Source of the DNA: Ectothiorhodospira shaposhnikovii
GTDB lineage: Bacteria; Pseudomonadota; Gammaproteobacteria; Ectothiorhodospirales; Ectothiorhodospiraceae
Direction of reading: 5' to 3'
NCBI RefSeq assembly: GCF_022227765.1
Contig: NZ_JAJMLZ010000001.1
Location: forward strand, 186,001 to 250,000
Length of the DNA: 64,000 bases
Positions 5,701 to 22,600 of the stretch are shown piece after piece; the first letter of the stretch is position 1, and each line of letters begins with the position of its first letter. The notes under the pieces are model-generated. The model searched no databases. It saw nothing but the letters and a program-made list of their open reading frames with translations, and was not told where the DNA came from. The position numbers were made by a program, and so were the translations under genes.

Positions 5701-8700
5701 ACCAGGCTGACGCGGTCTTCCCCACGCCCGTGGGGGTGTTTCTATCCTCTCTTCATCCGTGGCCGCCGACCAAGCGTCTTCCCCACGCCCGTGGGGGTGT
5801 TTCTCAGTCCGTGGGCGGCCATCCACGCAGTCTGCAGTCTTCCCCACGCCCGTGGGGGTGTTTCCATGTGATGCAGCACCGTGCCGGTGAGCAGGGCGTC
5901 TTCCCCACGCCCGTGGGGGTGTTTCTGTGACCGTCTGCCACGGCTTCCTTGAGGAGGTGTCTTCCCCACGCCCGTGGGGGTGTTTCTATGAGTCGGCAAT
6001 CTGCTGCGTCCGAGGAGATGTCTTCCCCACGCCCGTGGGGGTGTTTCCAAGGCTGGCGATGGAGAAGCTGCTGATCGTGCGTCTTCCCCACGCCCGTGGG
6101 GGTGTTTCTGGTGGTGGCGGTCGTAAGCGTGATGTGGTCGTGTCTTCCCCACGCCCGTGGGGGTGTTTCTGGGACTGCCCCTGCCGCTACTGCCCCTGCC
6201 ACGTCTTCCCCACGCCCGTGGGGGTGTTTCCCACCGCCACAGCCGCACCCGCCGTCATGGCACGTCTTCCCCACGCCCGTGGGGGTGTTTCCCCGGAGCG
6301 GGACGGCAGCGCCACCGATCAGCGGTCTTCCCCACGCCCGTGGGGGTGTTTCCGCCCGCCTGCAGCAGCTCACGCTCACCGAAAAGTCTTCCCCACGCCC
6401 GTGGGGGTGTTTCTGGTCGCGCCCCGCCTGGCCTGATTTTTCGAAGGTCTTCCCCACGCCCGTGGGGGTGTTTCTCAGACCCGGACTTACAAGTACCCCG
6501 TCTCCGTGTCTTCCCCACGCCCGTGGGGGTGTTTCCACCTGCACCCGCTGCCCGTGGTAGGCCGCCAGGTCTTCCCCACGCCCGTGGGGGTGTTTCTGCG
6601 GCCTAGTGGGCTCACCCCCGGAGAAGTACGTCTTCCCCACGCCCGTGGGGGTGTTTCCCGCCTGGCCGTTGGCGGCGTGACGGGCATCACGTCTTCCCCA
6701 CGCCCGTGGGGGTGTTTCCTCGGCGGCCTGGATGGCCTCGCTGACCGCTTGGTCTTCCCCACGCCCGTGGGGGTGTTTCCTCCCTGAAGTTGGCGGGTCT
6801 GAGGCCCTTGAGGTCTTCCCCACGCCCGTGGGGGTGTTTCTCCATCACCGGCTGATTACAGCCCTTGCCTTGCGTCTTCCCCACGCCCGTGGGGGTGTTT
6901 CCGGCAAAGGATTTGAGATTCTCATGCCCGGCATGTCTTCCCCACGCCCGTGGGGGTGTTTCCGAGTCCGGAGAGTTGCACATCCGCCCCGGCGAGTCTT
7001 CCCCACGCCCGTGGGGGTGTTTCTAACCTTCAGCGCCGGGTGCTGGACGATGACCAGTCTTCCCCACGCCCGTGGGGGTGTTTCTGAGCTGGCCGGGCAG
7101 GATGATGCCGGTCTCGGGTCTTCCCCACGCCCGTGGGGGTGTTTCCCACGCTGGGCCTGGGGGTGTACCCTGAAGTCTGTCTTCCCCACGCCCGTGGGGG
7201 TGTTTCTGGGGACCGGCACAGCACGGACCTGGGCCGTCGGTCTTCCCCACGCCCGTGGGGGTGTTTCCCCAGCCCTATTCTCTTGCAGGAGAACTAGACC
7301 GTCTTCCCCACGCCCGTGGGGGTGTTTCGATTACCCCACCAATCAAAGAAAACGATTGGCCGTCTTCCCCACGCCCGTGGGGGTGTTTCCAGCGTCTCGT
7401 CCTGGCTGTCCACGGCCAGCCCGTCTTCCCCACGCCCGTGGGGGTGTTTCTCCGCGTTCATGCGCGTGCGGTGAGCCAGGACGGTCTTCCCCACGCCCGT
7501 GGGGGTGTTTCTCACGCGAGGTCAACCGGGCCGACCGTGGGTGTGTCTTCCCCACGCCCGTGGGGGTGTTTCTACCAGATGGGTCTGGGAGGCTCTCCGG
7601 GGGTGGTCTTCCCCACGCCCGTGGGGGTGTTTCCCAGCGGCTCGTCGCTGGCTCTCGGGGTGTAGCGTCTTCCCCACGCCCGTGGGGGTGTTTCCCCTGT
7701 CGGTGCTGTTGTCGGACTGGTATTGACGTCTTCCCCACGCCCGTGGGGGTGTTTCTGAGTAGCGGCGTGTTGAAGATCCGGCTGGCGAGTCTTCCCCACG
7801 CCCGTGGGGGTGTTTCCGACGCCCCGGCATTGAGAGCGGCCAGCCCAGCGTCTTCCCCACGCCCGTGGGGGTGTTTCTTTCTTCCTCGTCGATGGGGATT
7901 ACGACCTGGAGTCTTCCCCACGCCCGTGGGGGTGTTTCCACCAACTCGCCGCCGAAGCGGCATAAGGAGAGGTCTTCCCCACGCCCGTGGGGGTGTTTCC
8001 GCAAGGCGCGGGAGAAGGCTGAGGCCGAGCAGGTCTTCCCCACGCCCGTGGGGGTGTTTCCCCCGCAGAGATAGGTCAAGCCCCTAGCGGGTGGTCTTCC
8101 CCACGCCCGTGGGGGTGTTTCCCCCGCAGAGATAGGTCAAGCCCCTAGCGGGTGGTCTTCCCCACGCCCGTGGGGGTGTTTCCGAGTAGCCCCGGCCCAG
8201 CCGGTTCATCACACGGTCTTCCCCACGCCCGTGGGGGTGTTTCTATCTGAGTCAGGCGCGGGAAGCGGACCAGTGAGTCTTCCCCACGCCCGTGGGGGTG
8301 TTTCCCAGCGCGAAGGTGCAGACGGCAATGAGGGGTCGTCTTCCCCACGCCCGTGGGGGTGTTTCCGCTGCCGGGTTCGACAGAAGCAGGGCGACGGGGT
8401 CTTCCCCACGCCCGTGGGGGTGTTTCCTGCTCCGACGACGGCAGAACGGGCTTGCGGCCGTCTTCCCCACGCCCGTGGGGGTGTTTCCGCCCTGGGTGAG
8501 CTGGTAGGGCACGGTCCGGTGTCTTCCCCACGCCCGTGGGGGTGTTTCCAGGTCGCGGCAATGGGCTACCCGGGCGCGGAAGTCTTCCCCACGCCCGTGG
8601 GGGTGTTTCCGACGACATGCCTCTAAAGCGGCGATGGAAGGCGTCTTCCCCACGCCCGTGGGGGTGTTTCTCGTCTATCGAGCGCATGAAAGCCCGATGG

Positions 8701-9159
8701 CAGGTCTTCCCCACGCCCGTGGGGGTGTTTCCGCGGCCTTGAGCTGGGGCATGTTCTCCCGGTAGTCTTCCCCACGCCCGTGGGGGTGTTTCTGACTTGT
8801 GACCAGACGAGCCAAGCCGCGCCCCGTCTTCCCCACGCCCGTGGGGGTGTTTCTTCACCTCGGACAGGTCTCCGGTCAGGGTTTCGGTCTTCCCCACGCC
8901 CGTGGGGGTGTTTCCCTGGCCCGGGCCGGCCTCTCGGTCAACGAGACGTCTTCCCCACATCCGTGGGGGTGTTTCCTCGGGCCATGAATTTGAGGCTGCC
9001 GTCCGGGGGTCTTCCCCACGTCCGTGGGGGTGTTTCCCTCACCGAGGATTAGGCGCCCTTTTGAAGGTGGTCTTCCCCACGCCCGTGGGGGTGTTTCCAG
9101 ATGGGGGTGGCGGAACTGACCGGCGTCGATGTCTTCCCCACGCTCGTGGGGATATTTCT
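2787..9159 (+). CRISPR. Type I-E CRISPR array, 105 repeats and 104 spacers
   Basis: A 28-bp conserved repeat (begins GTCTTCCCCACG, ends GGGGTGTTTC) plus a 29th base, mostly C or T, alternates with 32-bp spacers at a constant 61-bp period; every repeat start I checked from 2787 to 9131 falls on that grid. Positions 6-11 (CCCCAC) and 16-21 (GTGGGG) form a stem with a GCCC loop, a Cas6e-type hairpin. Cleavage after the stem would leave an 8-nt handle GUGUUUC(C/U). Repeats at 8948, 9009 and 9131 are mutated, so the leader is at the cas2 end. Two spacers are duplicated (3182-3213 with 3304-3335; 8062-8093 with 8123-8154). Open frames across this region in all frames come from the 61-bp periodicity and are not genes. 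Confidence 0.99.
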
Positions 9160-9326
9160 ACGAAGGGGGTTATTTTTTCGGGTAACTACTCACACCCCCT
9201 GCCTGTCACTGTGTTTAGCGCACTCAAGAAGCGCCGGATGCTGCTGGCGTTGGAAACGACTTTATATTGGCAGGAAAAAACAGGAGTGACTTGGCCGCCC
9301 AAGGGCCCACGTCCGAAACGGATCCA

Positions 9327-9378
9327 TGGTATGAGCACAACGGCCCCATGCCCGGCCAAGTCGTCACAGGTGTATAGC
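9327..9378 (+). repeat. Imperfect direct repeat, copy 1
   Basis: The copy begins TGGTATGAGCAC and ends GTATAGC. The second copy starts 107 bp downstream with the same first 12 bases, a shared GCCAAGTC core and the same end. In one frame both copies read Trp-Tyr-Glu-His-(Asn/Asp)-Gly and end at TAG, so they may be two diverged copies of the same coding tail. Confidence 0.5.
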
Positions 9379-9433
9379 CGAAGGAAATGAAATGACCTGA
9401 CGGCACCCCTGCCGCAACGTCCGCAACGTTTCG

Positions 9434-9485
9434 TGGTATGAGCACGACGGTTCGATGCGCTCGCCAAGTCCAACACGAGTATAGC
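9434..9485 (+). repeat. Imperfect direct repeat, copy 2
   Basis: This is the second copy of the element at 9327-9378. It starts TGGTATGAGCAC and its frame reads WYEHDGSMRSPSPTRV then stop. The central part has diverged by several substitutions and a one-base shift. It ends 2 bp before the phage-gene remnant. Confidence 0.5.
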
Positions 9486-9487
9486 AA

Positions 9488-9586
9488 GTGATCGAAGTGC
9501 AGATCGACGCCAGCGAGGTGACCGCCGCGCTGGAGCGCCTGGGTCAGGCGACCGGAGTCCTGAAAACCCATGATATGTTGGGATAA
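9488..9586 (+). pseudogene. N-terminal remnant resembling a Mu-like phage virion morphogenesis protein
   Basis: From GTG 9488 the frame reads VIEVQIDASEVTAALERLGQ and stops after 32 codons. The opening (M/V-I-E-V-x-I-D-x-x-E-V-x-A-A-L-x-R-L) resembles the start of Mu gpG-like virion morphogenesis proteins, which are normally about 150 residues or longer. The rest is lost, so it is a fragment if the assignment is right. The match is short and rests on recall of the family. Confidence 0.4.
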
Positions 9587-9696
9587 ACCGTTCGGCTGGA
9601 TGAGCCGCCTCGCCGACATCATGCGCTCCCCGCAGGTGACCTCGCCCATGTCGGTGGTTATCCTTACTACTACTTGCTTCCGGAGCGGGGTGATTC

Positions 9697-9837
9697 GTGA
9701 AATTAGTGGTTCAGGGCGCTCTGCTCATGCTGGCCGCCATAGGGTTGGCTGCAGCCTCGGTGGATCTGGCGGTGATGGTTTTGTTCGCTGCCCTGGGCGT
9801 GATCGTTACGGGCTTGGTCCGGGCGTTTTTGACATAA
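9697..9837 (+). CDS. Possible small hydrophobic protein (46 residues)
   Basis: From GTG 9697 the frame reads MKLVVQGALLMLAAIGLAAA and continues as a second hydrophobic stretch to TAA at 9835-9837. It would form one or two membrane helices with a short basic end. A GGAG lies 11 bp upstream, a little far for a good ribosome-binding site. Small membrane proteins are common in phage modules, which fits its neighbour, but it could be chance open frame in decaying DNA. Confidence 0.3.
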   Translation: MKLVVQGALLMLAAIGLAAASVDLAVMVLFAALGVIVTGLVRAFLT

Positions 9838-9965
9838 GCGGGTTCGGTGGTACACGGGTTCGAACTGGGTCCCGCGCAGAACCTCCATTTGCAGGATCAA
9901 ATCCTTTCCATAGCGCCCATACCCCTCCCTCGATCTGCTGACGGATAACGACCTATAATTGCGGA

Positions 9966-11519
9966 ATGTGGCTGCAAGAGATCCAACAGTTTGCCGCCGG
10001 GGCCGCCACGGCACCAGGCGTGGCGGCGACCATCCAACCTCTGCTGGGGATCCTCCAGCGGGTCACGGGTCTGGAGTCGGTGTTCCTCACCCGGATTTCC
10101 AGGGGCACTCAGACGGTCCTGTTCTCCCATAACACCGACCAGTTGCAGATCCTTGCAGGTATGTCGGCTCCCTGGGAAGACACCCTCTGCAGCCGTGCCT
10201 TGGCTGATGAGCGCCTGTTGGTCAATGATGTGGATGAACGCTGGCCGGATTCACAGGCCGGTAATGCCCTGGGCGTGAAGACTTACCTCACGTTCCCCAT
10301 CCGTGGTGCCGACGGTACGGTTCAGGGCACCCTCTGTGGTGCCAGTTGTCAGCCGGTGGATGTGACGCCCGAGGCCATGGCCATCGTCGGCATGTTTGCC
10401 GAAGTCATCTCCGCACAGTTGCTGCGAGAGATCAATCTTGATACCGCTTACCATCGGGCGGAGCGGGCCGAGGCGCTGGTGCACAAGATGGCCATCGCCT
10501 CGGAGATCGGCAATCTGTGTCTTGAGGCCCGCGATCTTCATCAGACCCTGAAGCAGGTGGCCCGGCGTCTGGAGGCCGTCCCGGTCTGGCGGCATGTCGT
10601 TTGTTTTCGCATGCAGGCCGGCCGCCCCGTGGTGGACGAGGGGCAGCAACCGGGCGATTACGAGCAGCTTATCAGGGTGGTGCTGGAGCAGTTGGGCGAT
10701 TCGGTGCAATACATGCACTCCAGAGACAATCCCCCCTTGCTGCAGGGGGCCGAGCAAGTGGAGGTCACTGCCGAGTTGCGGGCCAGGCTGGGTCTTGGCG
10801 GCAGGGGAGCGGTGGGTGTGCTCACCGCGGCCACCCATAAGGATCTGGAGGGCGGCATCCTGATCCTGGCGGATGAGCCGGTGGCTCCGACCGGGGGGGA
10901 TGGTCTGTTGCTGATTGCCGTATCCAACTATCTTTCCCTGCTGGCGATCCGGCTCAGGGATTACGAACAGCTCCAGGCCGCCAATCGTGAGCTGACTCGT
11001 TTTGCGCTGAATGATCCCCTGACGGGGCTGCCCAATCGCCGTTATCTGTTCGAGACGGTCCAGCGCCTGGTGTCGCAGGCTGCCCGGCTGGGGGAGTCGG
11101 TGGTGGTGCTGTTCATCGATCTGGACGGTTTCAAGCAGATCAACGATCGTTTCGGGCATCGTAGCGGTGATTATTTTCTGGTGCAGTTCGGCCGGCGTCT
11201 GAGCGCGGCCTTGCGGGAGGGTGACTTTGCCGCCCGCTATGGAGGTGATGAGTTCGTCGTTCTGGCGGTGACGCCGGGTTCGGGTGAGGATGCGGTGTCC
11301 CAACAGCAAGCAAGGCAATTTGCGGACCGTATCGGTCTTGCCCTCATGGGAACATTCGACTTGGAGGGGGCGGTCATCGACTACAGGGGACCCAGTATCG
11401 GTGTGGTGATCTGGGACTCGGACGAGGACATCGAGGCCTTGCTGCATCGAGCGGACAAGGCCATGTATGTGGAGAAGATCCGGCGCCGCGGACCGCCGCC
11501 GTTCACCGGCCCTCGGTAA
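9966..11519 (+). CDS. GAF-domain diguanylate cyclase
   Basis: The 517-residue cytoplasmic protein makes cyclic di-GMP in response to a signal bound by N-terminal sensor domains. Residues about 15-160 form a GAF domain (LFSHNTDQLQILAGMSAPWEDTLC, then YLTFPIRGADGTVQGTLCG). A second GAF-like region follows to about 330, and the GGDEF domain occupies about 345-510 (NDPLTGLPNRRYLF). The active site is intact (GGDEF, residues 426-430), and an allosteric inhibitory I-site (R-E-G-D) lies five residues before it, so product inhibition is expected. No membrane segment is seen. A TATAAT at 9954-9959 lies so close to ATG 9966 that the mRNA may be nearly leaderless, or translation may begin further in. 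Confidence 0.88.
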   Translation: MWLQEIQQFAAGAATAPGVAATIQPLLGILQRVTGLESVFLTRISRGTQTVLFSHNTDQLQILAGMSAPWEDTLCSRALADERLLVNDVDERWPDSQAGNALGVKTYLTFPIRGADGTVQGTLCGASCQPVDVTPEAMAIVGMFAEVISAQLLREINLDTAYHRAERAEALVHKMAIASEIGNLCLEARDLHQTLKQVARRLEAVPVWRHVVCFRMQAGRPVVDEGQQPGDYEQLIRVVLEQLGDSVQYMHSRDNPPLLQGAEQVEVTAELRARLGLGGRGAVGVLTAATHKDLEGGILILADEPVAPTGGDGLLLIAVSNYLSLLAIRLRDYEQLQAANRELTRFALNDPLTGLPNRRYLFETVQRLVSQAARLGESVVVLFIDLDGFKQINDRFGHRSGDYFLVQFGRRLSAALREGDFAARYGGDEFVVLAVTPGSGEDAVSQQQARQFADRIGLALMGTFDLEGAVIDYRGPSIGVVIWDSDEDIEALLHRADKAMYVEKIRRRGPPPFTGPR

Positions 11520-11636
11520 ATCGGGTCAATGTCCTGCGAAACGCCCATGATTCGCAAGGATGGCGGCTGCCCAACATCGTACCTGCCGTAATGGGGCATC
11601 ACGGACGATGCCCTGCCTCGGTGTGATCCGGGATCT

Positions 11637-12080
11637 CTATGGTCGAGACATCAGTTCCGCTTCGGCAAGGCGGAAATAGAGGATCGCCAGGGCCGCGGCG
11701 AAGATCAGGTCGAATAGCGCAAACCATAGCAGCCCACGCAGGGCGGCGCCGCCGAACAGTGCCATGAGAAGAAACAGCGTCCCCATGCCGAATCGTCCCA
11801 GTATCCCCACCATGTTGGGCCATCGGGTTTTCAGGGGGGATAGCCAGCCGGGCAGGTAGAGCATCACCGCCAGCAGCAGCATGCCGCCCCAGGCACGGAA
11901 CATGTGCATCGTCTCTTCCAGTGGCAGGCCGGCGGCCCGTGCCAGAGTGGTGGGGGACAGGATTGCCCATAGGCCGACCAGGACCAGTAGGAGCAGGTTG
12001 ATGCCCAGTACCTGACGGTAGCGCTTTTCCAGGGTGCGGGCCTGTCCCCGGGTCCAGCCCAGATTCAAGGTGTGATCCAT
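11637..12080 (-). CDS. Small four-helix membrane protein, last gene of the oxygenase operon
   Basis: The 147-residue protein has about four hydrophobic helices (around residues 24-46, 62-80, 90-108, 112-137) and short polar ends. I recognise no conserved catalytic motif; the size and layout resemble DUF4345/DoxX-like membrane proteins, but this is only a resemblance. It lies 17 bp after the dihaem cytochrome and is the final gene of the minus-strand operon. It may anchor or support the cytochrome or act in the membrane lipid environment; the function is unknown. Confidence 0.65.
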   Translation of the reverse strand: MDHTLNLGWTRGQARTLEKRYRQVLGINLLLLVLVGLWAILSPTTLARAAGLPLEETMHMFRAWGGMLLLAVMLYLPGWLSPLKTRWPNMVGILGRFGMGTLFLLMALFGGAALRGLLWFALFDLIFAAALAILYFRLAEAELMSRP

Positions 12081-12097
12081 GATTGCAGCCCTCCGCG

Positions 12098-13708
12098 TCA
12101 GAAGGTTCTCAGGTAGGCCAGCACCGCTGACCGCTGGGCGGCGGTGAGACTGGCGGTGGCGTAGTCATGACCGCCATTGCCGTTACCCGGCAGGCGTGTA
12201 TCGAAGCAGAAAAATCCCGTCGGAACCGGCTCTTCCGGATCACAGGGCGGGGAGACGAATCCCACCCGTTCCGGGTCCAGGATGTCGCTTCCCCGCAGGA
12301 ACGTGGTGGGTCGTTGTTCCGGGGGCAGTAGCAGGTGATACAGGGTGGGAACCGAACCGTTATGCAGAAACGGTCCGCGCAGCCAGAGGCCATCCAGGGG
12401 ATGGTTGGCATATCCCTGGGTTTTCACGAACGCCCTGAAGCCCAGGTATTCCCGCTGGGCCTGCCGGAAGGATTCCGTGTAGGAGTCCAGGCGGGCACGA
12501 TCGGTCCCTATCGTCTCAATGGGCTCCACCTGGCCGAGACGGTCTCCTTCAAACACATAACCCCGGTCGCCCTGATGGCCGTGACAGGCGGCGCAGTGTT
12601 CCATGTACAGTGACTTGCCATGCTCCAGTACCTGTGGGGGCACGGGCTCGGGCATCAGTCCGGGGAGGGGGCTTGGAGGAGGAGCCAGATCCTTGAGCCA
12701 GTTGGCCACGCGTTGGATGGCCCGGTGGTCCGCCTCGGTGGCGGTGGCCAGATCCAGTCCGGCGCCCACTGCGGCGGAGAGGTTGCGTTCACGCAGGCTG
12801 GGGTTGTTGCCATCCCAGTGCAGATGCATGCCTTCCCGGGGGCCTTGGTGAAAGATGGAGGGGAAATCGGCTGCGCCGATGCGCTCTTCGGGGCTCAGTT
12901 CGGCCCAGGTCTGGCGCAGTTGAATGAGCTTGTAGGGGTTGAAGGTATCGACCCGGCCCGGACCCCAGGCCGGTTGTCCGGCCATCATGGGTCCCAGTCG
13001 CTGGGCCTGCATGATGAGTCCTTCCCGCAACCGGGGCAGGACCACCCAGCGCCAAATCCGTCGTTCCAGCCTGCCCAGTGGCCCGGTGTTCTCTTCCAGC
13101 ACGGGTAGCAGTTGATCCGGTGCCAGGCGTTCATCAGTGGCGATGTGGCCGAGAAAGCCGATGAACCGGTGCAGATCCAGGTTGTTGGAGGGCATGCCGC
13201 TGACCCGGTGTCTTTCTCCGGTCGGTGCGAAGATGTCCGGGGTGTCGGAGCCGGGGGCACGCCAGGTGCCGGTGTGGCAGACCGAGCAGTTGAACCAGAC
13301 CAGATCCACGCCGTTGACGCGACGCTGGGAGAGGCCGATGGGCAGGTCCGCCGGGCGGCCACGCCGATCGTATTCATAGAGAAAGCCGAACGCGGCGTAG
13401 GCCCCGTCTCCTTGCGACAGGGCGGTTTCGAAGGTGTCGGGAAACAGGGCCGGCAGTGTCTTCCAGACCCGCGCGGGAATCCCGCTGCTGCGTTCGGCAC
13501 CGATGGAGCCGTGGTGAAAGTGTGCCAGGTCCGAGCGGTAGTGGGGGGTGGATTCGCCGGTATAGCGTATCAGCGCCACGGTGCCCACCAGCAGGATGAT
13601 CAGGCCGATCACCAGGGCGATGATGAGGATCACGGCCAGCGGCAGGGTCCACCAGCGCCGGCGTGCGCGGGCCGCTTCGACGGCCGTGAGATGGGTATCC
13701 GCAGCCAT
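12098..13708 (-). CDS. Membrane-anchored dihaem c-type cytochrome, RoxA / fatty-acid dioxygenase / cytochrome c peroxidase-like
   Basis: The 536-residue protein has an N-terminal membrane anchor (about 21-47) that would place the rest in the periplasm, and two haem c sites: CSVCH at 141-145 and CAACH at 372-376. The arrangement and the segment HWDGNNPSLRERNLSAA (about 297-313) recall the broad dihaem family that includes cytochrome c peroxidases, rubber oxygenase RoxA and the Pseudomonas oleate 10S-dioxygenase/diol synthase pair. Members either relay electrons or oxygenate lipids directly. The start overlaps the end of the Old Yellow Enzyme gene region (1-bp gap). Its link to an alpha-dioxygenase-like enzyme favours lipid oxygenation or peroxide reduction, which is inference. 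Confidence 0.75.
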   Translation of the reverse strand: MAADTHLTAVEAARARRRWWTLPLAVILIIALVIGLIILLVGTVALIRYTGESTPHYRSDLAHFHHGSIGAERSSGIPARVWKTLPALFPDTFETALSQGDGAYAAFGFLYEYDRRGRPADLPIGLSQRRVNGVDLVWFNCSVCHTGTWRAPGSDTPDIFAPTGERHRVSGMPSNNLDLHRFIGFLGHIATDERLAPDQLLPVLEENTGPLGRLERRIWRWVVLPRLREGLIMQAQRLGPMMAGQPAWGPGRVDTFNPYKLIQLRQTWAELSPEERIGAADFPSIFHQGPREGMHLHWDGNNPSLRERNLSAAVGAGLDLATATEADHRAIQRVANWLKDLAPPPSPLPGLMPEPVPPQVLEHGKSLYMEHCAACHGHQGDRGYVFEGDRLGQVEPIETIGTDRARLDSYTESFRQAQREYLGFRAFVKTQGYANHPLDGLWLRGPFLHNGSVPTLYHLLLPPEQRPTTFLRGSDILDPERVGFVSPPCDPEEPVPTGFFCFDTRLPGNGNGGHDYATASLTAAQRSAVLAYLRTF

Positions 13709-13709
13709 G

Positions 13710-15059
13710 TCAGTGACCCTCCGGTTCGGGGATGCGCAACTCGGCCCGGGTGCGATAGATGCTCATGATGTCTTCGATCATGGCCTCACGGCTGGGATAC
13801 CGTGCCTGCTCATAGCAACCCATGGGGTTCTTGGGGGCGTTGGTGAGGCATTTGTTGCAGTAGGTACAGGGGCGTTCCGGTAGATTCCGGCCGGCCCGCC
13901 ATTGCTGCACCAGATCGGGATTGGCCACCAGGGAGCGGGCGATGGCGACACCGTCGCAGGCACCTTCGCTCAGGGCGGCGCGGACGAAATCGGCGCTCTG
14001 GTAACCGCCGGTGGTGATGACGGGGATGTTCACGGCCCGTTTGATGGCCCGGCATTCGTCCAGACTCACGCCCTCGATGGGCAGGCCCCGCTGCATGCGG
14101 TGCCACAGCCAGCGGAACAGGGGGCGCAGCAGCGGGTAGCGGAACAGCAGGTAGTTGCGAAATCCGTTGACGCCGGCGGAGATCATGGCGTCGTAGGTCA
14201 CCGCCAGTGTTTCCAGGGGGAGTTCGCCGGGTGGGTTCAGCGGGTGCGGGAACATGGCCCCGGTGGACACGTGAATGGCATCCGCGCCGGTGGCCTCGCA
14301 CCATCGGGCCACCTGTATCGTGTCGGCCAGGGTATTGCCGGGTTTCTCCCAGGGCAGCACCTGATTGCGGTCGATGGCGCTCAATTTGACCTGCAGATGG
14401 AAGTCGCGCCCCACGCGCCGACGGATCGCCTCGATCACTTCGAGCAGGAATCTTGCCCGGTTGGTGAGCGAGCCGCCGTAACGGTCGGTGCGGTCATTGA
14501 TGGCCGAGCTCAGGAACTGGGTGAAGAGATAGCCGTTGGCGGCGTGCAGTTCGACACCGTCCAGCCCCGCCTCCCGGGCGCGCCAGGCCCCCTGGGCGAA
14601 GGCATTCACCAGGCGTTCGATCTCACCCTCGCCCATGGCGCGGCAGAGAAAACCGTGCAGGGGTTCCTTGCGGTGGGTGGGGCTGGGGGCGGGGCGATGC
14701 TGGTTGTGAATGCCGGGGAGGTCCATCTGTCGCCCCGAATGGCTCAGCTGGAGAATGAATCGGCAGTCGTGACGATGCACCGCTTCCCCCAGGCGGGCCC
14801 ACAGGGGAATGAAGTCGTTGCGGTGGATGGTGGCATATCCGGCGATGATTCTGCCGTGCATGGCCACCGGCACATAGGATGACAGGATGGCACCCACGCC
14901 GCCTTGGGCGAAGCGACATTCCCAGTTGATCCGGGTCTGGGTCAGGGAGCCGTCTTCATTGTCGAAGCGTCCCGAGATATTGGAACGTAGAATCCGGTTT
15001 TTCAGTGTCAGGTTGCGAAAGACCAGCGGGGTGAAGATCGGGTCCTGATCCGGGCTCAT
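13710..15059 (-). CDS. Old Yellow Enzyme family NADH:flavin oxidoreductase
   Basis: The 449-residue protein is an FMN-dependent TIM-barrel ene-reductase. It has the family opening (FTPLVFRNLTLKNRILRSNISG), the flavin and substrate segment HSGRQ, the barrel motif GVELHAANGYLFTQFLSSAINDRTDRYGG (split: GVELHAANGYLF and DRYGGSLTNRARF) and the C-terminal PVITTGGYQ. A cysteine-rich tail (CTYCNKCL) lies near 410, as in the branch with 2,4-dienoyl-CoA reductase-like features. I chose ATG 15059 for its GGAGGA ribosome-binding site; the open frame extends far upstream but overlaps the next gene. Old Yellow Enzymes reduce activated double bonds; plant members reduce oxylipins such as 12-oxophytodienoate. 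Confidence 0.85.
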   Translation of the reverse strand: MSPDQDPIFTPLVFRNLTLKNRILRSNISGRFDNEDGSLTQTRINWECRFAQGGVGAILSSYVPVAMHGRIIAGYATIHRNDFIPLWARLGEAVHRHDCRFILQLSHSGRQMDLPGIHNQHRPAPSPTHRKEPLHGFLCRAMGEGEIERLVNAFAQGAWRAREAGLDGVELHAANGYLFTQFLSSAINDRTDRYGGSLTNRARFLLEVIEAIRRRVGRDFHLQVKLSAIDRNQVLPWEKPGNTLADTIQVARWCEATGADAIHVSTGAMFPHPLNPPGELPLETLAVTYDAMISAGVNGFRNYLLFRYPLLRPLFRWLWHRMQRGLPIEGVSLDECRAIKRAVNIPVITTGGYQSADFVRAALSEGACDGVAIARSLVANPDLVQQWRAGRNLPERPCTYCNKCLTNAPKNPMGCYEQARYPSREAMIEDIMSIYRTRAELRIPEPEGH

Positions 15060-15063
15060 GCCT

Positions 15064-15954
15064 TCATCCTCCCTGCGCGGGTCTCTCCCCCGCCTTGCGC
15101 CAGGCTTCGGAGAGTAGTCGGGGCACCCAGGCCGCCGCGGGGCAGTGGCTCCAGGTGTGGGTGAGGAAGGCGATGTCATGGCGCAGGCTGCGCGCTCTGG
15201 CCGTTTCGAGTCGAAACAGGGCCAGGGTGCCGGGGGCGAAGGAGCCTGCCCCGTGGTTGCCGTGCGTTCTGGCCTGACGCAGCACCGTTTCCGGCGCCAC
15301 CAGACAACGGGAGGCCGCGGCGGCGGGTGTGATGCGCGCGAGGGCGTGGGGGTGTTCCACAACCAGCTGACGCATCCGTTCCAGGGCCGCGACCAGGTTA
15401 TGCAGCGCAATGGCGGTGGCATGTAGTGCGGTGGCGTCCCTTTGCACCTTTTCCGCCAGTCGGGCACGTGCCTGATCCACGTCGCCGCTCCGCCGCCAGC
15501 GCCATTGGCGCCAGGGGTTGAGGGTGCGGGCCGCCCTGTCCAGCAGGCAGGCATCCTGGTAGCTCTGCGGGTTTGCCCGGTAATCGCCGTTGAACCGCCG
15601 TCCGATGATTCCCTGTACCAGTACCCCGGGTCCGTCCGGGGCATCGCCCCGGGCAAGATAGGCTGCCAGTGCCTCCAGGTCGGCCTGGGAGCATGGCGGT
15701 CCTTCCAGGTGCCGGGCCAGGGTGGTCTGGGTGGCATTGGGACGCTCATCGCCGATGGGCGCCACCGGGGGCAGAGGGTGGCCGTCCAACTGCAGATGTC
15801 GCCGAATGCCCCTTGCAAGCCATCGATTGAGCCAGGGACCGCTGGAAAGGAATTCACGGTCCAGACGCTGATCCCGAGCCAGTTCCAGGATTTCCCCGGG
15901 TTGTTCCACCCAGAGCAGGTCGATCAGGCCTGCCAGCTTCAAGCGTCGGGCCAT
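15064..15954 (-). CDS. Unknown protein between the dioxygenase-like and Old Yellow Enzyme genes
   Basis: The 296-residue protein matches no family I recognise. It is soluble, rich in arginine, alanine and leucine, and mostly helical by composition, without cysteine clusters, signal peptide or membrane helix. Notable segments are SGPWLNRWLARGIRRHLQL, a central AYLARGDAPDGPGVLVQGI and a C-terminal FLTHTWSHCPAAAW. Its ATG lies 3 bp after the dioxygenase stop, so translation is coupled and the two proteins may interact. It might be an accessory, substrate-delivery or second catalytic partner; none of these is shown by the sequence. Confidence 0.7.
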   Translation of the reverse strand: MARRLKLAGLIDLLWVEQPGEILELARDQRLDREFLSSGPWLNRWLARGIRRHLQLDGHPLPPVAPIGDERPNATQTTLARHLEGPPCSQADLEALAAYLARGDAPDGPGVLVQGIIGRRFNGDYRANPQSYQDACLLDRAARTLNPWRQWRWRRSGDVDQARARLAEKVQRDATALHATAIALHNLVAALERMRQLVVEHPHALARITPAAAASRCLVAPETVLRQARTHGNHGAGSFAPGTLALFRLETARARSLRHDIAFLTHTWSHCPAAAWVPRLLSEAWRKAGERPAQGG

Positions 15955-15957
15955 GGC

Positions 15958-17829
15958 TCAATCCTCCGTCCTGGCCCAGGGGAAGAACACGTTGCGTACA
16001 TCGGCAAAATGGCCCTTGAGTTGGGGGCAGTGGCGGGCGATGACGGTGCGCAGGGAGTTGTCCCTGATCCAGTCGAAACCTGCGGGCGTGTAGATCTCCG
16101 GGCGAAAATCATCGGTGAAGAAACGGTCACTCTTGAGCCGTCGCGAGGCCATGAGGATGAAGATGCGAAAGGCGGTGTCGGAGAAGCCGAAGCCCGGTGG
16201 CGTGCCGTGTGCCTTGCATTGACTCTCCGCCAGGGTGCCTACCAACAGATCCACGTCTTCCACGCTGGCATAGACTTCCTGGAGTTCCCGTTGCCAGTGG
16301 GGGTTGTCCGTCAGTTCCTGAAAGTTGCGCGGGGCATGGCATTCGATATGGCGCCGGAATTCGCAATAGCGCGGTACTCCGTGTTCCCGGTCCCGCAACA
16401 CGTCGATGGCCGCCAGGTCCAGAAACACGCCCTTGGTTCCCATGCGGTCGATGCGGCGCAGCCCGTTGGGGAAGTTGTGCAGGACCAGTGCGCCGGGATG
16501 ACTGGTGCACAGGGAATACACCACGTCGTCAAATCCCACTTGGCGGTAGATCCGGGTGACCTCGCCGGCGGAAACTCCCGTCAGGTCCAGGTGAAGCAAT
16601 TCCTGGTCGTCTTCACGGCGGCGAAACGAGTATTCATCCGGCATCAGTGAGTGAAGTCGGTAGACGGCGGCGAATTCCTCGGTCATGGCGTAGGCGGCGC
16701 CGTGGTGGTCGGCGGGGGAGCCGGGAATTCCGGACAGGATCTCTCCCTGGCCCACGCGTCCGAAGGCGCGATGGTACTGTTCGCCCAGCAGACCCCAGAA
16801 GTTGCCCCGCATGGCCATGCGGCCTTCCGGGGAGTTCATCAGTGCCGGTGTCCATTCCACGGTGTGGATCTTGGCCAGCAGGGCGGCGTTGACCAGCCGG
16901 GCCTTCTGGAACAGCCATTCGCCGGTGGCGTCCGGGTGATCAATGCGCAGCCGGTCCACGATGGCGTTGTGTTCGTGCACAAACAGGCGGTGCAGGACCG
17001 ACAGGCCGACCCACCAGTTGCCGTTGACGCCGGCCAGTTCCAGATCCTTGGTCGGTTTGCCATGTTGGGTCTTGCCTTCGATCGGCAGGGCACCGTCGGG
17101 CTGCACGCCCAGCTTGCCATCTTCCAGAAAGGCACCGGTGGTGGGGTCGGTGCGAACCAGACGCTGGCGCTCCAGGGAGGAGCCGTAGATCTGGGAGGCG
17201 TCCCACCAGCTTGTCTCCACGTTGGTATAGGCGTCGGGTAGCCCCTGATCCTGGGGATGTCGCGTGTCGGCGTGGGCGCGCAGTACCGTCATCTTTCCTT
17301 CCGGCCAGTCATCTCCCTCGGGAAGGGGAATATCGTGAGGGGGTTCGTTCTTGTTGTTGGGGCCGTGGCTGAGCCAGTCGTGGACCATGAACTGAATCCA
17401 GGCGGCGGCCAGCACGTTGAGGTGGGGCACCGGAATGAACTCGCGCCGGGCCAGTAGCGCGTTGCTGATCAGTCGCGGACTGGGTTCGTAAAGACGGGGC
17501 GGCACTTCGCCGAAAGCGGCTTCGGGGGGCATGTTGCGGGCGAATCGGGTGCCGGTCATGCCCATCCACGGCTCGCTCATGTCGTTGTAGCTGCCGTCCG
17601 CCGTTCGCATCCCGCGTACATCGAAATCCTGGTTGGGGGGCACCGGGGGAGGGACGGTCTGGGTGTCGGTGAGGTTGTGTCGGCGGAGATTGACTCGATG
17701 ACCCACGATCATCGCCATGGCGATGAAGAACGGCCACTGAAACCAGGGACGACGGCGGGCCAGGCGGGTGGTCAGCGTGCCCAGCAACCGCTCGTACCAG
17801 GAAGCCTGAAATGATGATCCTCGGCGCAT
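15958..17829 (-). CDS. Alpha-dioxygenase-like haem oxygenase (animal haem peroxidase superfamily)
   Basis: The 623-residue protein matches plant and bacterial fatty-acid alpha-dioxygenases in size (about 640) and motifs. The distal histidine is in FMVHDWLSHG (His150); the catalytic tyrosine and proximal histidine are in EEFAAVYRLHSLMPDEY (Tyr390, His393), with the same Y-x-x-H spacing as prostaglandin synthase Tyr385/His388; HEHNAIVDRL is also conserved. Alpha-dioxygenases use the tyrosyl radical to convert fatty acids to 2-hydroperoxides. A hydrophobic segment near residues 31-43 may bind membrane. GGAGGG lies 6 bp before ATG 17829. It is the first gene of a five-gene operon and has a sigma-54-like promoter. 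Substrate is inferred from family only. Confidence 0.85.
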   Translation of the reverse strand: MRRGSSFQASWYERLLGTLTTRLARRRPWFQWPFFIAMAMIVGHRVNLRRHNLTDTQTVPPPVPPNQDFDVRGMRTADGSYNDMSEPWMGMTGTRFARNMPPEAAFGEVPPRLYEPSPRLISNALLARREFIPVPHLNVLAAAWIQFMVHDWLSHGPNNKNEPPHDIPLPEGDDWPEGKMTVLRAHADTRHPQDQGLPDAYTNVETSWWDASQIYGSSLERQRLVRTDPTTGAFLEDGKLGVQPDGALPIEGKTQHGKPTKDLELAGVNGNWWVGLSVLHRLFVHEHNAIVDRLRIDHPDATGEWLFQKARLVNAALLAKIHTVEWTPALMNSPEGRMAMRGNFWGLLGEQYHRAFGRVGQGEILSGIPGSPADHHGAAYAMTEEFAAVYRLHSLMPDEYSFRRREDDQELLHLDLTGVSAGEVTRIYRQVGFDDVVYSLCTSHPGALVLHNFPNGLRRIDRMGTKGVFLDLAAIDVLRDREHGVPRYCEFRRHIECHAPRNFQELTDNPHWQRELQEVYASVEDVDLLVGTLAESQCKAHGTPPGFGFSDTAFRIFILMASRRLKSDRFFTDDFRPEIYTPAGFDWIRDNSLRTVIARHCPQLKGHFADVRNVFFPWARTED

Positions 17830-17893
17830 CGCTCGCCCTCCATAGTTGGGGGATGATCAGGACGGGTTCGGTGTCTCCTTCAAAAAGGGTGGG

Positions 17894-17908
17894 GCAAGTT
17901 TCAGGCCG
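17894..17908 (-). promoter_or_regulatory. Sigma-54-type -24/-12 promoter candidate for the oxygenase operon
   Basis: Read on the minus strand the site is CGGCCTGAAACTTGC. It keeps the invariant GG and GC with exactly 10 bases between them and the TTGC of the -12 element (consensus TGGCACG-N4-TTGC). It lies about 65 bp upstream of the dioxygenase start. An enhancer-binding activator gene two genes upstream supports it. Matches at other consensus positions are partial. Confidence 0.5.
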
Positions 17909-18034
17909 TGATTTGTAAAGCTTTTTTAAATCATGTGGTTGGGATTGATGTGGCGGTGGCGTGCAGGGGGGTGGGGCAATTTTGTCCCGGTGGCCCGATG
18001 GGTGCGGCGGGGTTACGGGAGGGCCGTTGATCCA

Positions 18035-18298
18035 TCAGGAAGCGTCATCTGCCGGGTCTTGAGGCGGTCTGCGAAATACCACCTGCCCGGAGAGATGGGG
18101 CTCGGCCCTGAGAATGTCCCGCTTGCAGAGCATCTCCACGGCGTGTTCCGCCACCTCCGGGGAGACATGACGATACTCCGGTGGCAGCCAGCAGCTGATG
18201 ATGCCCTGAAGGTTGTCGGCGGCCCCCGGATGGGCTTCCAGGTAGTCTTCTATGACTTTTGCAATGCGCTGGGGTGAGACACGGCTTGACGGGTTCAA
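18035..18298 (-). CDS. Small unknown protein upstream of the oxygenase operon
   Basis: The frame encodes about 87 residues if translation starts at TTG 18298, which has an AGAGGA ribosome-binding site; a GTG at 18349 would give 104 residues but lacks one. The product is helical (RIAKVIEDYLEAHP, EVAEHAVEMLCKRDILRA), similar in layout to a small winged-helix or partner protein, but I recognise no family. It lies between the activator gene and the promoter of the operon, in the same direction as both. Confidence 0.5.
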   Translation of the reverse strand: MNPSSRVSPQRIAKVIEDYLEAHPGAADNLQGIISCWLPPEYRHVSPEVAEHAVEMLCKRDILRAEPHLSGQVVFRRPPQDPADDAS

Positions 18299-18435
18299 GG
18301 GGGCTGTCCTCTTGGGTGCATGGGCTTTGAAAGCAAGCAACAGCCACACCAGTTTCGTTGCGGCCCTGACTCCCCGGGGGAGTGGCGCACCGTGAGTGTA
18401 CAGGCCGGTTCACCGTCATTTCCCTTGGGTCGAAC

Positions 18436-19473
18436 TCAACCCTCTGGGGCGATCTTGACCCGGTCGCCACGGATACCGTGTTTCTTGAGCAGCTTGCCAA
18501 ATGCCCTTCGCTCCTTGCCGGCCATCCGTGCCGCCAGGGTGACGTTCCCCCCTGCCCGTCGCAGCATCACCTGCAGATAGCCTTTTTCAAAGCGATCGAT
18601 CGCCTGCTTTTTGGCCTGGGTGAAGGGTATCGGGCTGTCATGGCTTGTGGCCGGGGTTGCGGCACCGGTGGGCAGTGCCGTCGGGTTGCTGAAGCAGAGG
18701 GCTTCAAGGTGAATCGGGCCTTCAAGACACAGCAGGCTGGCACGATGCATGGCATTTTCCAGTTCCCGTACGTTGCCGGGCCATGCATGATTCTTGAGCC
18801 ACTCGATCCCCTCGGAGGTAATGCCGCGGCTGCCTCGATCGTACTGGGCATCGAAATGGGCCAGGAAATAGTTTGCCAGAAGCAGGATGTCGTCACCTCG
18901 TTCGCGCAGGGGGGGAACGCACAGGGTGAGCAGGTTGAGCCGGTAATAAAGGTCCTCCCTGAACTGATTATCCTGGATCTGGCCACTCAGAGAACGGTTG
19001 CTGGCAGCGATGATCCTGACATCCGCATGGCGAAACTCCCGTCCGCCCACCAGCCGGTATTCCTGGTTTTGCAGAAAGCGCAGCAGACTGACCTGTGCGC
19101 GCAAGTCCAGGGCGTCGACCTCGTCCAGGAACAGGGTCCCGTGGCGAGCCAGTTCCACCAGCCCCGGCCGGCGTTGATGTGCGCCGGTGAAAGCGCCCCG
19201 TTCGTGGCCGAAGAGTTCGGATTCCACTAGATCGGTCGGCAGGGCGCCGCAATTCATGGGGATGAATCCAGCGCCTCTGCGTGGCCCAAGGTAATGCAGG
19301 GCTCGGGCGACCAGTTCCTTGCCGGTCCCTGTCTCCCCTTGGATCAGGACCGGTATGTCCGAATGCATGACCTGCTCTATCGCCTTCAGCAAAGTGCGAA
19401 AGGGCGGCGAGTCTCCCACCAGATGAAGGCGCCGGAACCGGTCGGCCAGATCGACGTGGCATGCAGCCGTCAT
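18436..19473 (-). CDS. Sigma-54-dependent transcriptional activator (NtrC-type AAA+)
   Basis: The 345-residue protein has a short N-terminus without receiver or sensor domain, a central AAA+ domain and a Fis-type DNA-binding end, like PspF. Walker A is GETGTGKE, the sigma-54 contact loop is GAFTGA (in FGHERGAFTGAHQ), Walker B is TLFLDEVDAL, and the helix-turn-helix is near GGNVTLAARMAGKERRAF. ATG 19473 has a GAGGT ribosome-binding site. With no sensor domain, it is probably controlled by an anti-activator or constitutively active. The nearest sigma-54-like promoter is that of the minus-strand oxygenase operon. It is divergent from the BLUF protein gene. Confidence 0.88.
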   Translation of the reverse strand: MTAACHVDLADRFRRLHLVGDSPPFRTLLKAIEQVMHSDIPVLIQGETGTGKELVARALHYLGPRRGAGFIPMNCGALPTDLVESELFGHERGAFTGAHQRRPGLVELARHGTLFLDEVDALDLRAQVSLLRFLQNQEYRLVGGREFRHADVRIIAASNRSLSGQIQDNQFREDLYYRLNLLTLCVPPLRERGDDILLLANYFLAHFDAQYDRGSRGITSEGIEWLKNHAWPGNVRELENAMHRASLLCLEGPIHLEALCFSNPTALPTGAATPATSHDSPIPFTQAKKQAIDRFEKGYLQVMLRRAGGNVTLAARMAGKERRAFGKLLKKHGIRGDRVKIAPEG

Positions 19474-19622
19474 GACCCACCTCGGAGCTTGACCTTTTAC
19501 CGAGTGTAGGTTCTGACCCGGGGGAGTCAAGGTCGAGCCGGGGCTGGGGCGGGTAATGTCGGCAGAATCAGTTATCATTGACGTGCTGATGCCTTGATGG
19601 CGCGTTACCTGGTATATCCGCC

Positions 19623-22600
19623 ATGTCCCTATCTGTCTCTGGTCCCATCCGTCTAGGTCTGATGGCCCCTCTGACCGGGATTGCCGGTCTTTATGGCGAG
19701 GAAATCTGCCGGGCCGCCCGAATGGCCGTGGACGAGGTCAACGAAAGCGGCGGCCTTCTGGGGCGTCCCCTGGCGCTGGTGGTCGAGGATGACGGCAGTC
19801 AGCCCGAAACGGCGGTGCCCGCAGCCCAGCGCCTGGTGGACGAGCATGGCTGCGCGGCCATGATCGGTAATCTCCTGTCCAATTCCCGCATTGCCGTGGC
19901 CACCCAGGTGGCCACGGCCCGGCGCGTGCCCCTGCTGAATTTTTCCTTCTATGAGGGCAGCATTCACGAGCCCTTCTTCTTCAGTTTTTCCGCCCTACCC
20001 AATCAGCAGATCGAGCCCATGATTCCATTCATGGCCCGGCGTCATGGCGTGAAGATGTTTTTTGCCGGCAATAACTACGAATGGCCCCGGGGTTCCATCG
20101 ATGCCGCCAAGCGGTCTTTGCTCGCCCTGGGGGGAGACGTGGTGGGGGAGGAGTACTTGCCCTTTGAGGCGAGTGAACAGGATCTGGCGATCCTGCTGGA
20201 GCAGGTCGGTCGATCCGGTGCCGATGTGTTCGTACCCTATTTTTCCGGTTGGGATCAGGTCAGGGTGTTCCGCCGCTGTGCCGCCCTCGGGCTGAACCGG
20301 CGCATGGCCCTGGCTACCAGCCATTTCGATGAGGTCATGGCCGGTCAGTTGTCCCGGGAAGCGCGCCAGGGAATCCATGTCGTCAACAGTTATTTCATGT
20401 CGGTGGATACCCTGGCCAACCGCGACGTTCTCCGGCGTCTGTCCGGGCTGCCGGGCATGACCGGTATCTGGCCTCGGGGTAATGGTGTCCTCACCCATTT
20501 CGGCGAAGGCACCCATGTCTGTGTGCAGGCGTTTGCCCAGGCCGTCCGGCAAGCCGGCACGTGCGCGACGGATGCATTGTGTTCAGCCCTTGCCCGTGTG
20601 CGGGTATCGGCACCTCAGGGGCAAGTGAGTATGGACCCGGTACTGCGACATGCCGAGATCAACGCCTATCTGGCACGCAGCAATGGTAACGGTGGTTTCA
20701 GCATCATTGAAAGCTTCGGTCCCATTCCCCCGGAGATTCCTGAACGCTATCGGTCCTCTTCCCCGGTACCCGGTTTGCCGCCGCGGACTCCGCTCGGTGC
20801 GTTCAAGACCACCGAGACGGTTGATCGGGCAGTGGGCGGGTTGGCCCGGCACATCCTGGCCTGGGCGGATATCGCGATCCTGACGGCGGATGCGCAGGGA
20901 ATCCTGACCCACGTCAACCGGCGGGCCTGTGAACTGTTCGGCTATGAGGACGGCGAACTGATCGGGCAGTCCGTGCATCTGCTGGTGCCGCCGCACCTGC
21001 GGGAACGTCATGCGCTGTTTTACCGGCGATTCCTCGAAGGCCCGGAAGATGAGCGGCGGATGGCGGAGCGGTCGGAAATCACCGGATATCACAAGGATGG
21101 CAGTTTCCTGTCCCTGGAGGCTTCCATTGCCAAGTTCCATCAGCAAGGCGCCTGGAATCTGGTGGTGACCGTGCTGGATATCTCGGCGCGCAAGCAGGCG
21201 GAGAAGGAACTGCTCTGGCGCGCCACCCATGACGTCCTCACCGGCTTGCCCAACCGTGCCCTGATGCATGAGCGCCTGAGTAACGCCCTGGCACGCTCCC
21301 GCCGCCATGGTCTGAACGTCGCCCTGCTGCATCTGGGGCTGGATGGGTTCAAGCTGATCAATGACAGTCATGACCGGCAGACCGGTGATGCGTTGCTGAT
21401 GGCGGTGACTCGACGTTTGCTGGAACAGGTCCGTCCCGGCGATACGGTGGCCCGCCTGGCCGGAGATGAGTTTGCGATCCTGGCGGAGCAGGTGGGTCAG
21501 CCGGCGGCCATCGCCGGTCTTGCCGAGCGCCTCAACGAGGCCATGCGCCAGCCGTTCGAGGTCAACGGAGTGCCGGTGATCGTGACCGCCAGCATCGGGG
21601 TGGCGACGGGGCAGGGCAGCACTCACAGTGCCGATGATGTCATGCGCTGCGCGGAGACGGCGTTGCATGCCCTCAAGCAGAAAGGGCGCGACGGTTGGCA
21701 ATTTTTCAATGACTATCAGCATCACCAGGCCTTGCAGCGGCTGAACGTGACCCTGGGGTTGCGGGGTGCCATCGAGAATCAGGAATTGCAGGCCCGCTTC
21801 CAGCCCATCCTGTCTTCGGATCGCGGGCGGATTGTCGGGGCTGAACTGCTGCTGCGCTGGTTTCCTCCCCAGGGGGAAGTGTCTCCGGCCGTCTTCATCC
21901 CCATCGCCGAGATGAGCGGTGCCATTTTGCCCATCGGCCTTTGGGTGTTTCGGGCCGGATGCCTGGCCGAAGTGGAGTGGCGCCGTCGTTGGGGAACGCA
22001 CGCACCGTATGTCTCGGTCAACCTCTCCGCCCGCCAGTTGAGTGACGAGTCTCTGGTGGATGACATGTCTCGCGTGCTGCGGGAAACCGAGGCCGATCCG
22101 TCCCGTATTGTGCTGGAGGTGACGGAGACGGCATTGATGGCGGATATCGACGCCAATCTTCTGGTGCTTCGCCGGCTGGCGGATCTGGGGCTGCGCCTGG
22201 CCGTGGATGATTTCGGCACGGGGTATTCCTCTTTGGCTCAGCTGACGCGTCTGCCGGTCAGCATTCTGAAGATTGACCGTGCCTTCGTGGATGGGATCGA
22301 AACCCGTCATGAGAGCCGCGCGGTGGTCAGGGCCGTCATCGGCCTGGGACGGTCGCTGGGGTTGACCCTGGTGGCGGAAGGGGTGGAGACCCAGGGGCAG
22401 CATCTGGAACTGCTCAACGGGGGATGCGGGTTGTTTCAGGGATATCTGTTTCACGCCCCCATGAAGCCGGAGGATTTCGTGCGCCTGATGGATGCACAGT
22501 CTGATTTTGATCATGGGGAGGATCAGGGCGAGGAAAGTTTCGTGCTGTATGTCAGTCGTACCGTCGAGCCGCTGGATGGCGATTCCCTGCAGGCGATTTT

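Follow-up and report, generated by a model that had tools for sequence, protein, structure and literature searches.

Alpha-dioxygenases are known from bacteria of five phyla, and the available text of the report describing them gives no alpha-oxidation pathway around these enzymes (PMC8720084). Cyanobacterial 10S-dioxygenase (10S-DOX) acts with a catalase-related hydroperoxide lyase (PMC13049297; PMC11719350), and in the fungal DOX-CYP proteins, among them linoleate diol, allene oxide and epoxy alcohol synthases, a dioxygenase of the peroxidase-COX superfamily is fused to a cytochrome P450 that needs no reductase (PMC13049297). The operon analysed here lies in a 64,000-nucleotide stretch of the genome of Ectothiorhodospira shaposhnikovii (genome G000, contig 1, 186001-250000; hereafter the window). 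It consists of five minus-strand genes spanning positions 17829-11637, with intergenic gaps of 3, 4, 1 and 17 bp; an earlier sequence-only reading had correctly placed all five on one strand with gaps of 1 to 17 bp. The genes encode an alpha-dioxygenase homologue (DOX), a protein without a family match (UNK), a flavoenzyme of the Old Yellow Enzyme (OYE) superfamily, a dihaem c-type cytochrome and a small hydrophobic protein. With a probability of roughly 0.55, this operon would be a fatty-acid alpha-oxidation unit in which UNK, a protein of predicted P450 fold, processes the hydroperoxide formed by DOX.

DOX (P0002, 623 aa, 15958..17829, minus strand) is the most clearly assigned of the five proteins. 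It matches PF03098 with 359.5 bits (E 3.9e-107) and rice alpha-DOX (4kvj) with 342 bits (E 7e-101) over residues 22-618, which bears out the alpha-dioxygenase assignment made from sequence alone. The distal His150, Tyr390 and proximal His393 named in that reading are found at those positions and align with H157, Y379 and H382 of the rice enzyme (numbering from PMC8720084). They are kept in 81, 85 and 85 rows, respectively, of an 86-row alignment, which includes L010 and L011 as distant homologues and, from L039, a second copy that is truncated; in five rows the distal His is replaced by Arg. Rice H311, T316 and R559, which hold the fatty-acid carboxylate and the alpha-carbon (PMC8720084), correspond to H322, T327 and R569, conserved in 83, 80 and 85 of the 86 rows. 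Because both the haem and radical residues and this triad are conserved, the residues provide strong evidence that DOX would alpha-oxygenate a carboxylic acid. DOX thus shares near-full-length likeness, the distal His, Tyr and proximal His, and the H/T/R triad with the plant and cyanobacterial alpha-DOXs (rice OsaDOX, CalDOX and LepDOX); these differ in their described setting, since the main text of PMC8720084 and PMC9305512 mentions neither an operon nor a P450.

UNK (P0003, 296 aa, 15064..15954, minus strand) was listed in the sequence-only reading as an unknown protein. The lack of a family match stands, as neither Pfam nor NCBIfam recognises it, but structural models now predict an identity where none had been offered. 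The AlphaFold2 model of P0003 has a predicted local distance difference test score (pLDDT) of 91.9 and a predicted template modelling score (pTM) of 0.90. Foldseek compares it with 345 PDB chains at E 0.001 or better, and the best 50 of these 345 are P450s with probability 1.00; two of the 50, TylHI and a fatty acid decarboxylase, are presumably P450s, although their titles do not say so. In VIA comparisons the model superimposes on P450s with Z 19.4 and a root-mean-square deviation of 3.4 Å over 269 of 296 residues. A second model, of the UNK protein from Tateyamaria (L024; 30% identical to P0003), has a pLDDT of 92.1 and gives Z 17.8 and 3.1 Å over 252 of 281 residues, again with P450s among the matches listed, a few of which we presume to be P450s without a title that says so; the two predictions have most alignment rows in common and are not fully independent. 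In a viral structure library, the sole match at E 0.001 is a phage P450. These models point to a shortened version of the cytochrome P450 fold. In searches of a different kind, a PDB profile search with UNK returned PdxS-type matches at E 0.05 and one ribosomal protein, and the lowest E-values among 24 UNK members were 0.0016 in Pfam (CHAD, one member) and 0.12 in NCBIfam. A CHAD identity was set aside, since the models show a P450 fold.

Sixteen columns are invariant among the 24 UNK members, including H178, P221, R226, W268 and C271-P272-A273. The codon for Cys271, the proposed haem-thiolate ligand within W268-S-x-C271-P-A, lies at 15142..15144 on the minus strand; this residue is present in 24/24 members and directly precedes the last long helix of the model (276-290). 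The haem cysteines of the P450s compared are presumably residues 336 in CYP175A1, 442 in CYP17A1, 356 in GcoA, 358 in CYP199A4 and 345 in P450BioI. When the distance from the end of each structural match to this cysteine is taken, it equals that of C271 in 12 of 17 VIA rows, which cover five P450s, and is off by 1-2 in the other five; for the L024 model it is equal for C260 in three of four rows. Indirectly, through these match-end distances, Cys271 is predicted to occupy the haem-ligand position of P450s. The model also has only nine residues, including a short helix turn, between the I helix (174-200) and the K helix (210-217), so that UNK seems to lack helices that are located by the redox-partner face of ordinary P450s. 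None of the five operon genes encodes a ferredoxin or a P450-type reductase according to Pfam and NCBIfam. Known P450s that use peroxide without a redox partner are the CYP152 peroxygenases (P450 BS beta, SP alpha and OleT). They resemble UNK in fold within the Foldseek matches listed, but they are longer (402-424 residues among those matches) and carry the normal P450 motifs; CYP152 is absent among the 50 VIA matches listed, and nothing is concluded from that absence. A tentative proposal is that UNK represents a new P450 family, unseen by sequence profiles, which has lost the redox-partner face and serves as a self-sufficient, hydroperoxide-converting partner of the alpha-dioxygenase.

The linkage of the five genes is conserved well beyond the window. 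The best 80 of 343 confirmed relatives of DOX were retained as loci, of which Ectothiorhodospira lacustris (94% identical in DOX) is the nearest named one. All five genes occur in identical order and on the same strand in 21 of the 24 closest loci, whose DOX identities are 58-94%. In the sequence-only reading, absence of linkage in relatives was set as grounds for giving up the idea; linkage was found, and chance clustering was rejected on these 21 ordered cassettes. Among the three remaining loci, L026 has all five genes in a changed order together with a second cytochrome, the flavoenzyme of L031 is not in the available stretch, and L016 retains DOX and the membrane protein only. The cassette is present also in Caulobacter, Labrys and Rhizobium; two of the cassettes, L028 and L029, are similar and maybe not independent, and L028 is binned as Anaerolineae, possibly through a binning error. 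At the level of sequence, then, the operon, the protein families, the active-site residues and the conserved linkage are established.

A whole-genome search, which took in 45 of the 80 loci, found exactly one UNK gene in each of 23 of the 24 cassette genomes; none of the 21 other DOX genomes has it. Among 23 plasmid records with a DOX match, UNK is encoded by one, the record whose DOX is closest to that of the window (60%). A sample of 385 alphaproteobacteria contains UNK in two genomes, DOX (E 1e-60) in two and a close flavoenzyme (E 1e-90) in three; few candidates were scored per genome and the UNK/DOX genomes G154 (centre) and G161 already belong to the cassette set, so these counts speak to rarity only. 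Throughout the genomes, plasmids and class sample searched, UNK was found only beside DOX. A flavoenzyme orthologue (56-62% identical) is linked in 13 of 56 more distant DOX loci, in 12 of them no more than 251 bp from DOX, upstream, downstream or divergent and on either strand, and in L051 at 4.3 kb. In L057 the flavoenzyme and DOX share one open frame, and the adjacent cytochrome gene is frame-broken, possibly by an assembly error; cytochrome relatives also occur in L045, L051, L057 and L088, and L090 has only a short cytochrome fragment. Frame clustering over 25 loci recovered the cassette genes, frames overlapping them and a LysR-like gene, so labelled by eye and presumably of that family, in seven loci at varied positions; the remaining neighbour clusters occur in three or four loci, mostly the three Labrys, and no other widely common neighbour gene was found by this clustering of mechanical frames, in which the flanks were not scanned with Pfam. 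Mirror-tree correlations between the genes (r 0.42-0.85, rho 0.17-0.58) do not control for kinship and are not used as evidence.

Distant relatives of DOX have other haem proteins at their side. In L003 (G108), L044 and L064, DOX is preceded within the same protein by a catalase-related domain, which in all three scores above the Pfam catalase cut-off. Separate catalase-related copies lie near DOX in L044, L050, L062, L083, L085, L088 and L089; the copy in L050 is 2 kb away on the other strand, and the two compared with the Pfam cut-off, those in L085 and L088, fall below it, that of L088 having 3e4w as its PDB match. Given these catalase-related partners, the cyanobacterial 10S-DOX lyase and the fungal DOX-P450 fusions, a second haem protein adjoining a dioxygenase is a recurring theme, into which a P450-fold UNK would fit. 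The cyanobacterial pair, too, consists of a dioxygenase and another haem protein, which converts the hydroperoxide formed (haem in UNK being proposed), but the partner fold is catalase there and a predicted P450 here. Fungal DOX-CYP proteins combine, as this cassette would, a peroxidase-COX superfamily dioxygenase with a P450 (PMC13049297). In contrast to them, the cassette has separate genes, an alpha-type DOX rather than an 8/9/10-specific one, and a P450-fold protein of 281-317 aa across its members, lacking HxCxG and ExxR.

The third gene (P0001, 449 aa, 13710..15059, minus strand) encodes the flavoenzyme; its start was set at the ATG at 15059 by comparison with relatives, as the longest mechanical frame begins at 15857. 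Membership of the OYE superfamily, claimed in the sequence-only reading, is supported by PF00724 (217.5 bits, E 4e-64) and by the active site H-x2-N-x-Y, whose H172, N175 and Y177 are conserved in 37, 37 and 39 of the 39 aligned rows. The likeness to plant oxylipin reductases that accompanied the claim is weak, because phmmer favours a dienoyl-CoA reductase and an Fe-S-like motif is present. Among PDB entries, E. coli 2,4-dienoyl-CoA reductase (FadH, 1ps9) matches best, at E 3e-39; YqjM types come next, and plant OPR1 (1vji, E 2e-27) scores much lower. The motif, CxxCxxCx10C (13815..13868, minus strand), comprises C398, C401, C404 and C415, kept in 39, 39, 39 and 38 of the 39 rows, and suggests a [4Fe-4S] cluster site. 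It is also found in three paralogues of these rows, from L015 (5690-6715), L016 and L038 (33-38% identical, left out of the linked-orthologue counts), and hence marks a wider class. FadH shares the H/N/Y site and a Cys-rich stretch that aligns with the motif, but it has 671 residues, including a C-terminal FAD/NADPH part. As this part is missing, the flavoenzyme may need an outside electron donor.

The dihaem cytochrome (P0004, 536 aa, 12098..13708, minus strand) belongs to the RoxA-like superfamily, in keeping with the superfamily assignment of the sequence-only reading, with 168.7 bits for NCBIfam CytoC_perox NF040606 (cut-off 150) and 51.2 bits for the RoxA-like PF21419. Like RoxA/RoxB and PA2077/PA2078, it has two CxxCH haem sites (at 141 and 372), a MauG motif with His449, the C-terminal haem ligand His514 and an inter-haem tryptophan. 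In a profile alignment to RoxA (4b2n), with RoxA residues counted along the printed chain, W298 corresponds to W302 and A316 to F317, at a mean accuracy of 0.70 around the Ala316 stretch. F317 assists or stabilises O2 binding in RoxA (PMC6311187), and PA2077 and PA2078 carry Phe at the same place (PMC4496055). As Ala316 replaces this Phe, dioxygenase activity of the dihaem protein is doubtful, and the part of the earlier claim that likened it to lipid dioxygenases is weakened. The protein also differs from RoxA/RoxB and PA2077/PA2078 in its length of 536 aa and in that it keeps a hydrophobic N-terminal segment, which, read by eye, is an apparent membrane anchor. The last gene (P0005, 147 aa, 11637..12080, minus strand) has no Pfam or NCBIfam match; it is conserved at the cassette end, its 27-row alignment contains no conserved His, and its product, judging by the hydrophobic sequence, is probably located in the membrane.

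The substrates, reactions and order of steps in the following scheme are those that we infer. DOX would combine a fatty acid with O2 to give a 2-hydroperoxy acid, as its complete active site implies. UNK, which probably binds haem through Cys271, would convert or cleave this acid without a redox partner before it decays to an aldehyde one carbon shorter. UNK would thereby take the role of the P450 half in the fungal DOX-P450 fusions, or of the catalase-related proteins beside cyanobacterial DOX. The flavoenzyme could then reduce the product of the UNK step at an activated C=C or at an O-O bond; for the latter option there is a precedent in a trypanosome OYE that reportedly reduces a prostaglandin endoperoxide. 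The dihaem cytochrome and the small membrane protein may work alongside the flavoenzyme as a redox or peroxidase module on the membrane side.

Several observations weigh against this scheme. None of the 24 UNK members, scanned singly, matches a P450 family at E 1 in Pfam or NCBIfam. For the ExxR motif, no column pair occurs in at least 6 of the 24 at the K helix (210-217), and elsewhere the pattern reaches at most 7/24. The FxxGxxxCxG haem loop, searched as F..G.[HRS].C.[GA], and the I-helix pattern [AG]G.[DE]T are each found in 0/24. An hhalign comparison of UNK with eight P450s is insignificant (probability 1.3, E 0.04), yet in it the I helix and the PGT segment are aligned with each other's counterparts. 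Because the ExxR, haem-loop and I-helix motifs and a significant profile match are all absent, UNK could have lost its haem. The remaining points concern the partners. In the stretches fetched, 43 of the 56 distant DOX loci are without a flavoenzyme orthologue and all 56 without UNK; 11 of the 56 have less than 1.5 kb of contig on one side, and the misses come partly from contig ends. Since distant DOX loci mostly lack the flavoenzyme and all lack UNK, DOX does not need these partners. In L031 and on the Qingshengfaniella plasmid L106, the place of the flavoenzyme is taken by a VAO-type flavoprotein, accompanied by an alpha/beta hydrolase and a weak EthD-type protein. G542 (L117, 9066-13979), the third alphaproteobacterial sample genome with a close flavoenzyme, encodes a flavoenzyme, a dihaem protein, a membrane-protein-like frame and a second dihaem protein with no DOX at E 1e-60. 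Because the three-gene set occurs there without DOX, its substrate may not be the DOX product. The cassette seems to consist of two modules, DOX-UNK and flavoenzyme-cytochrome-membrane protein, given that UNK occurs only with DOX and the three-gene set also without it. Finally, inspection by eye, with no predictor run, shows no evident export signal in DOX, UNK or the flavoenzyme, whereas the dihaem domain should be periplasmic; a pathway of simple linear form would therefore need to pass across the membrane.

These points give room to other explanations. The cassette might serve peroxide disposal, tolerating or repairing oxidised lipids, with DOX removing damaged or free fatty acids by alpha-oxidation and the P450-fold protein, the Fe-S flavoenzyme and the dihaem protein all acting as peroxide sinks. 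Peroxide chemistry is known in the superfamilies to which the partners belong, and phototrophs, which face singlet oxygen, are over-represented among the carriers: 9 of the 23 cassette genomes (L012-L034 without L016, plus L068) carry reaction-centre genes, against 25 of the 385 alphaproteobacterial sample genomes, a frequency about six times higher (Fisher p 2e-5; 9e-5 with one of two similar genomes omitted). This test is post hoc and uncorrected for kinship, the 23 include non-alphaproteobacteria, and G161 belongs to both sets. As 14 of the 23 have no reaction-centre match and DOX is present in only 2 of the 10 genomes of the window's genus, peroxide disposal is unlikely, although from the enrichment a photo-oxidative or phytol role is possible. 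The latter would take the form of isoprenoid-acid catabolism, in which the RoxA-like protein cuts first, the flavoenzyme saturates a branched 2-enal or 2-enoate, for example a phytol derivative, and the resulting 3-methyl acid is shortened by DOX through alpha-oxidation because beta-oxidation is blocked. It would suit this route that beta-methyl enals are substrates of OYEs and that phytanic acid has to be degraded by alpha-oxidation. The phototroph enrichment and the cleavage of isoprenoids by RoxA (PMC6311187) would suit it too. With Ala316 in place of F317, a cassette that also occurs in Caulobacter, Labrys and Rhizobium, and no additional catabolic gene as a widely common neighbour in the loci clustered, it is highly improbable.

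Two further explanations were weighed. In one, UNK may be a haem-free P450-fold scaffold or lipid binder, with DOX alone making aldehydes as in plants and the other genes fulfilling independent redox functions. The missing classical motifs are consistent with this, as is the existence of the flavoenzyme-cytochrome-membrane module without DOX, and recombinant cyanobacterial alpha-DOXs produced aldehydes in E. coli (PMC8720084). The invariance of Cys271, W268, P272, A273, R226 and P221 in 24/24 members argues in the opposite direction, together with the occurrence of UNK only with DOX in the genomes searched and its ratio of nonsynonymous to synonymous substitution (dN/dS) of 0.19, the second highest of the five genes between the window strain and Ectothiorhodospira lacustris (0.06-0.21 for all five), and a haem-free UNK is regarded as unlikely. 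The linear route of the sequence-only reading, in which DOX oxygenates, the dihaem protein acts as a second lipid dioxygenase like PA2077 or as a peroxide reductase, and an OPR-like ene-reductase completes an oxylipin, draws on the conserved operon and on the RoxA-like superfamily shared with PA2077. It is very unlikely, given the lost F317 equivalent and a flavoenzyme nearer to dienoyl-CoA reductase with an Fe-S-like motif, and it has no place for the P450-fold protein. The reading preferred here is alpha-oxidation in which a partner of P450 fold processes the hydroperoxide.

In its genome setting, the operon is, judging by the gene content of relatives, an accessory unit, because DOX is found in only 2/10 genomes of the genus and in 5/144 relatives at E 1e-20, two of them weak. 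No match to PF00067 occurs in genomes G000-G009, the window's own included. Sigma-70 and sigma-54 promoter patterns show no excess over chance, and Rfam has no match within window positions 7000-20000. Ahead of the operon, TTGCCCCACCC occurs twice on the minus strand at 17887-17979, 82 bases apart, as a possible operator pair. Upstream and on the same strand, 18436-19578 encodes a sigma-54 activator with AAA and Fis-type domains, in which a sensor domain was not found; its cluster is not among the neighbours common to three or more loci. The plus-strand frame at 19623-22982 encodes a single 1119-aa chain that combines PAS, GGDEF and EAL domains with a periplasmic-binding-protein domain and a blue-light domain of the BLUF type. 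A long CRISPR array with a 61-nt period occupies about 2848-9160, with one repeat-spacer unit exactly duplicated at 8049/8110, and the cas genes upstream of it (33-2474) match Pfam Cas_CT1975, Cas_Cas5d and Cas_Cas1. In L117 (G542), a GMC oxidoreductase frame follows the row of redox genes; upstream of the row, the opposite strand carries a patatin-like gene.

Among the titles and abstracts of the literature matches listed, none concerns an operon of bacteria in which an alpha-DOX is accompanied by a P450 or by an OYE. The cassette would thus add a bacterial arrangement, of which no earlier description was found, to the previously known theme of a dioxygenase with a haem-protein partner. A conserved five-gene cassette offers a testable pathway around bacterial alpha-dioxygenases. 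If it is true that UNK converts the DOX hydroperoxide, bacteria too have P450 partners of dioxygenases, encoded by genes of their own. According to a 2026 review, the P450 parts of the fungal fusions might go back to a P450 of bacteria that had been joined to a peroxidase-COX protein (PMC13049297). Should UNK be the self-sufficient P450 partner tentatively proposed above, the cassette would be a split counterpart of the fungal DOX-P450 fusions and a model for the origin of such pairs. The UNK-like protein of L106 is annotated as 'hypothetical protein'; if the proposal is correct, such entries would conceal P450-fold proteins that have only about 290 residues and lack the standard motifs.

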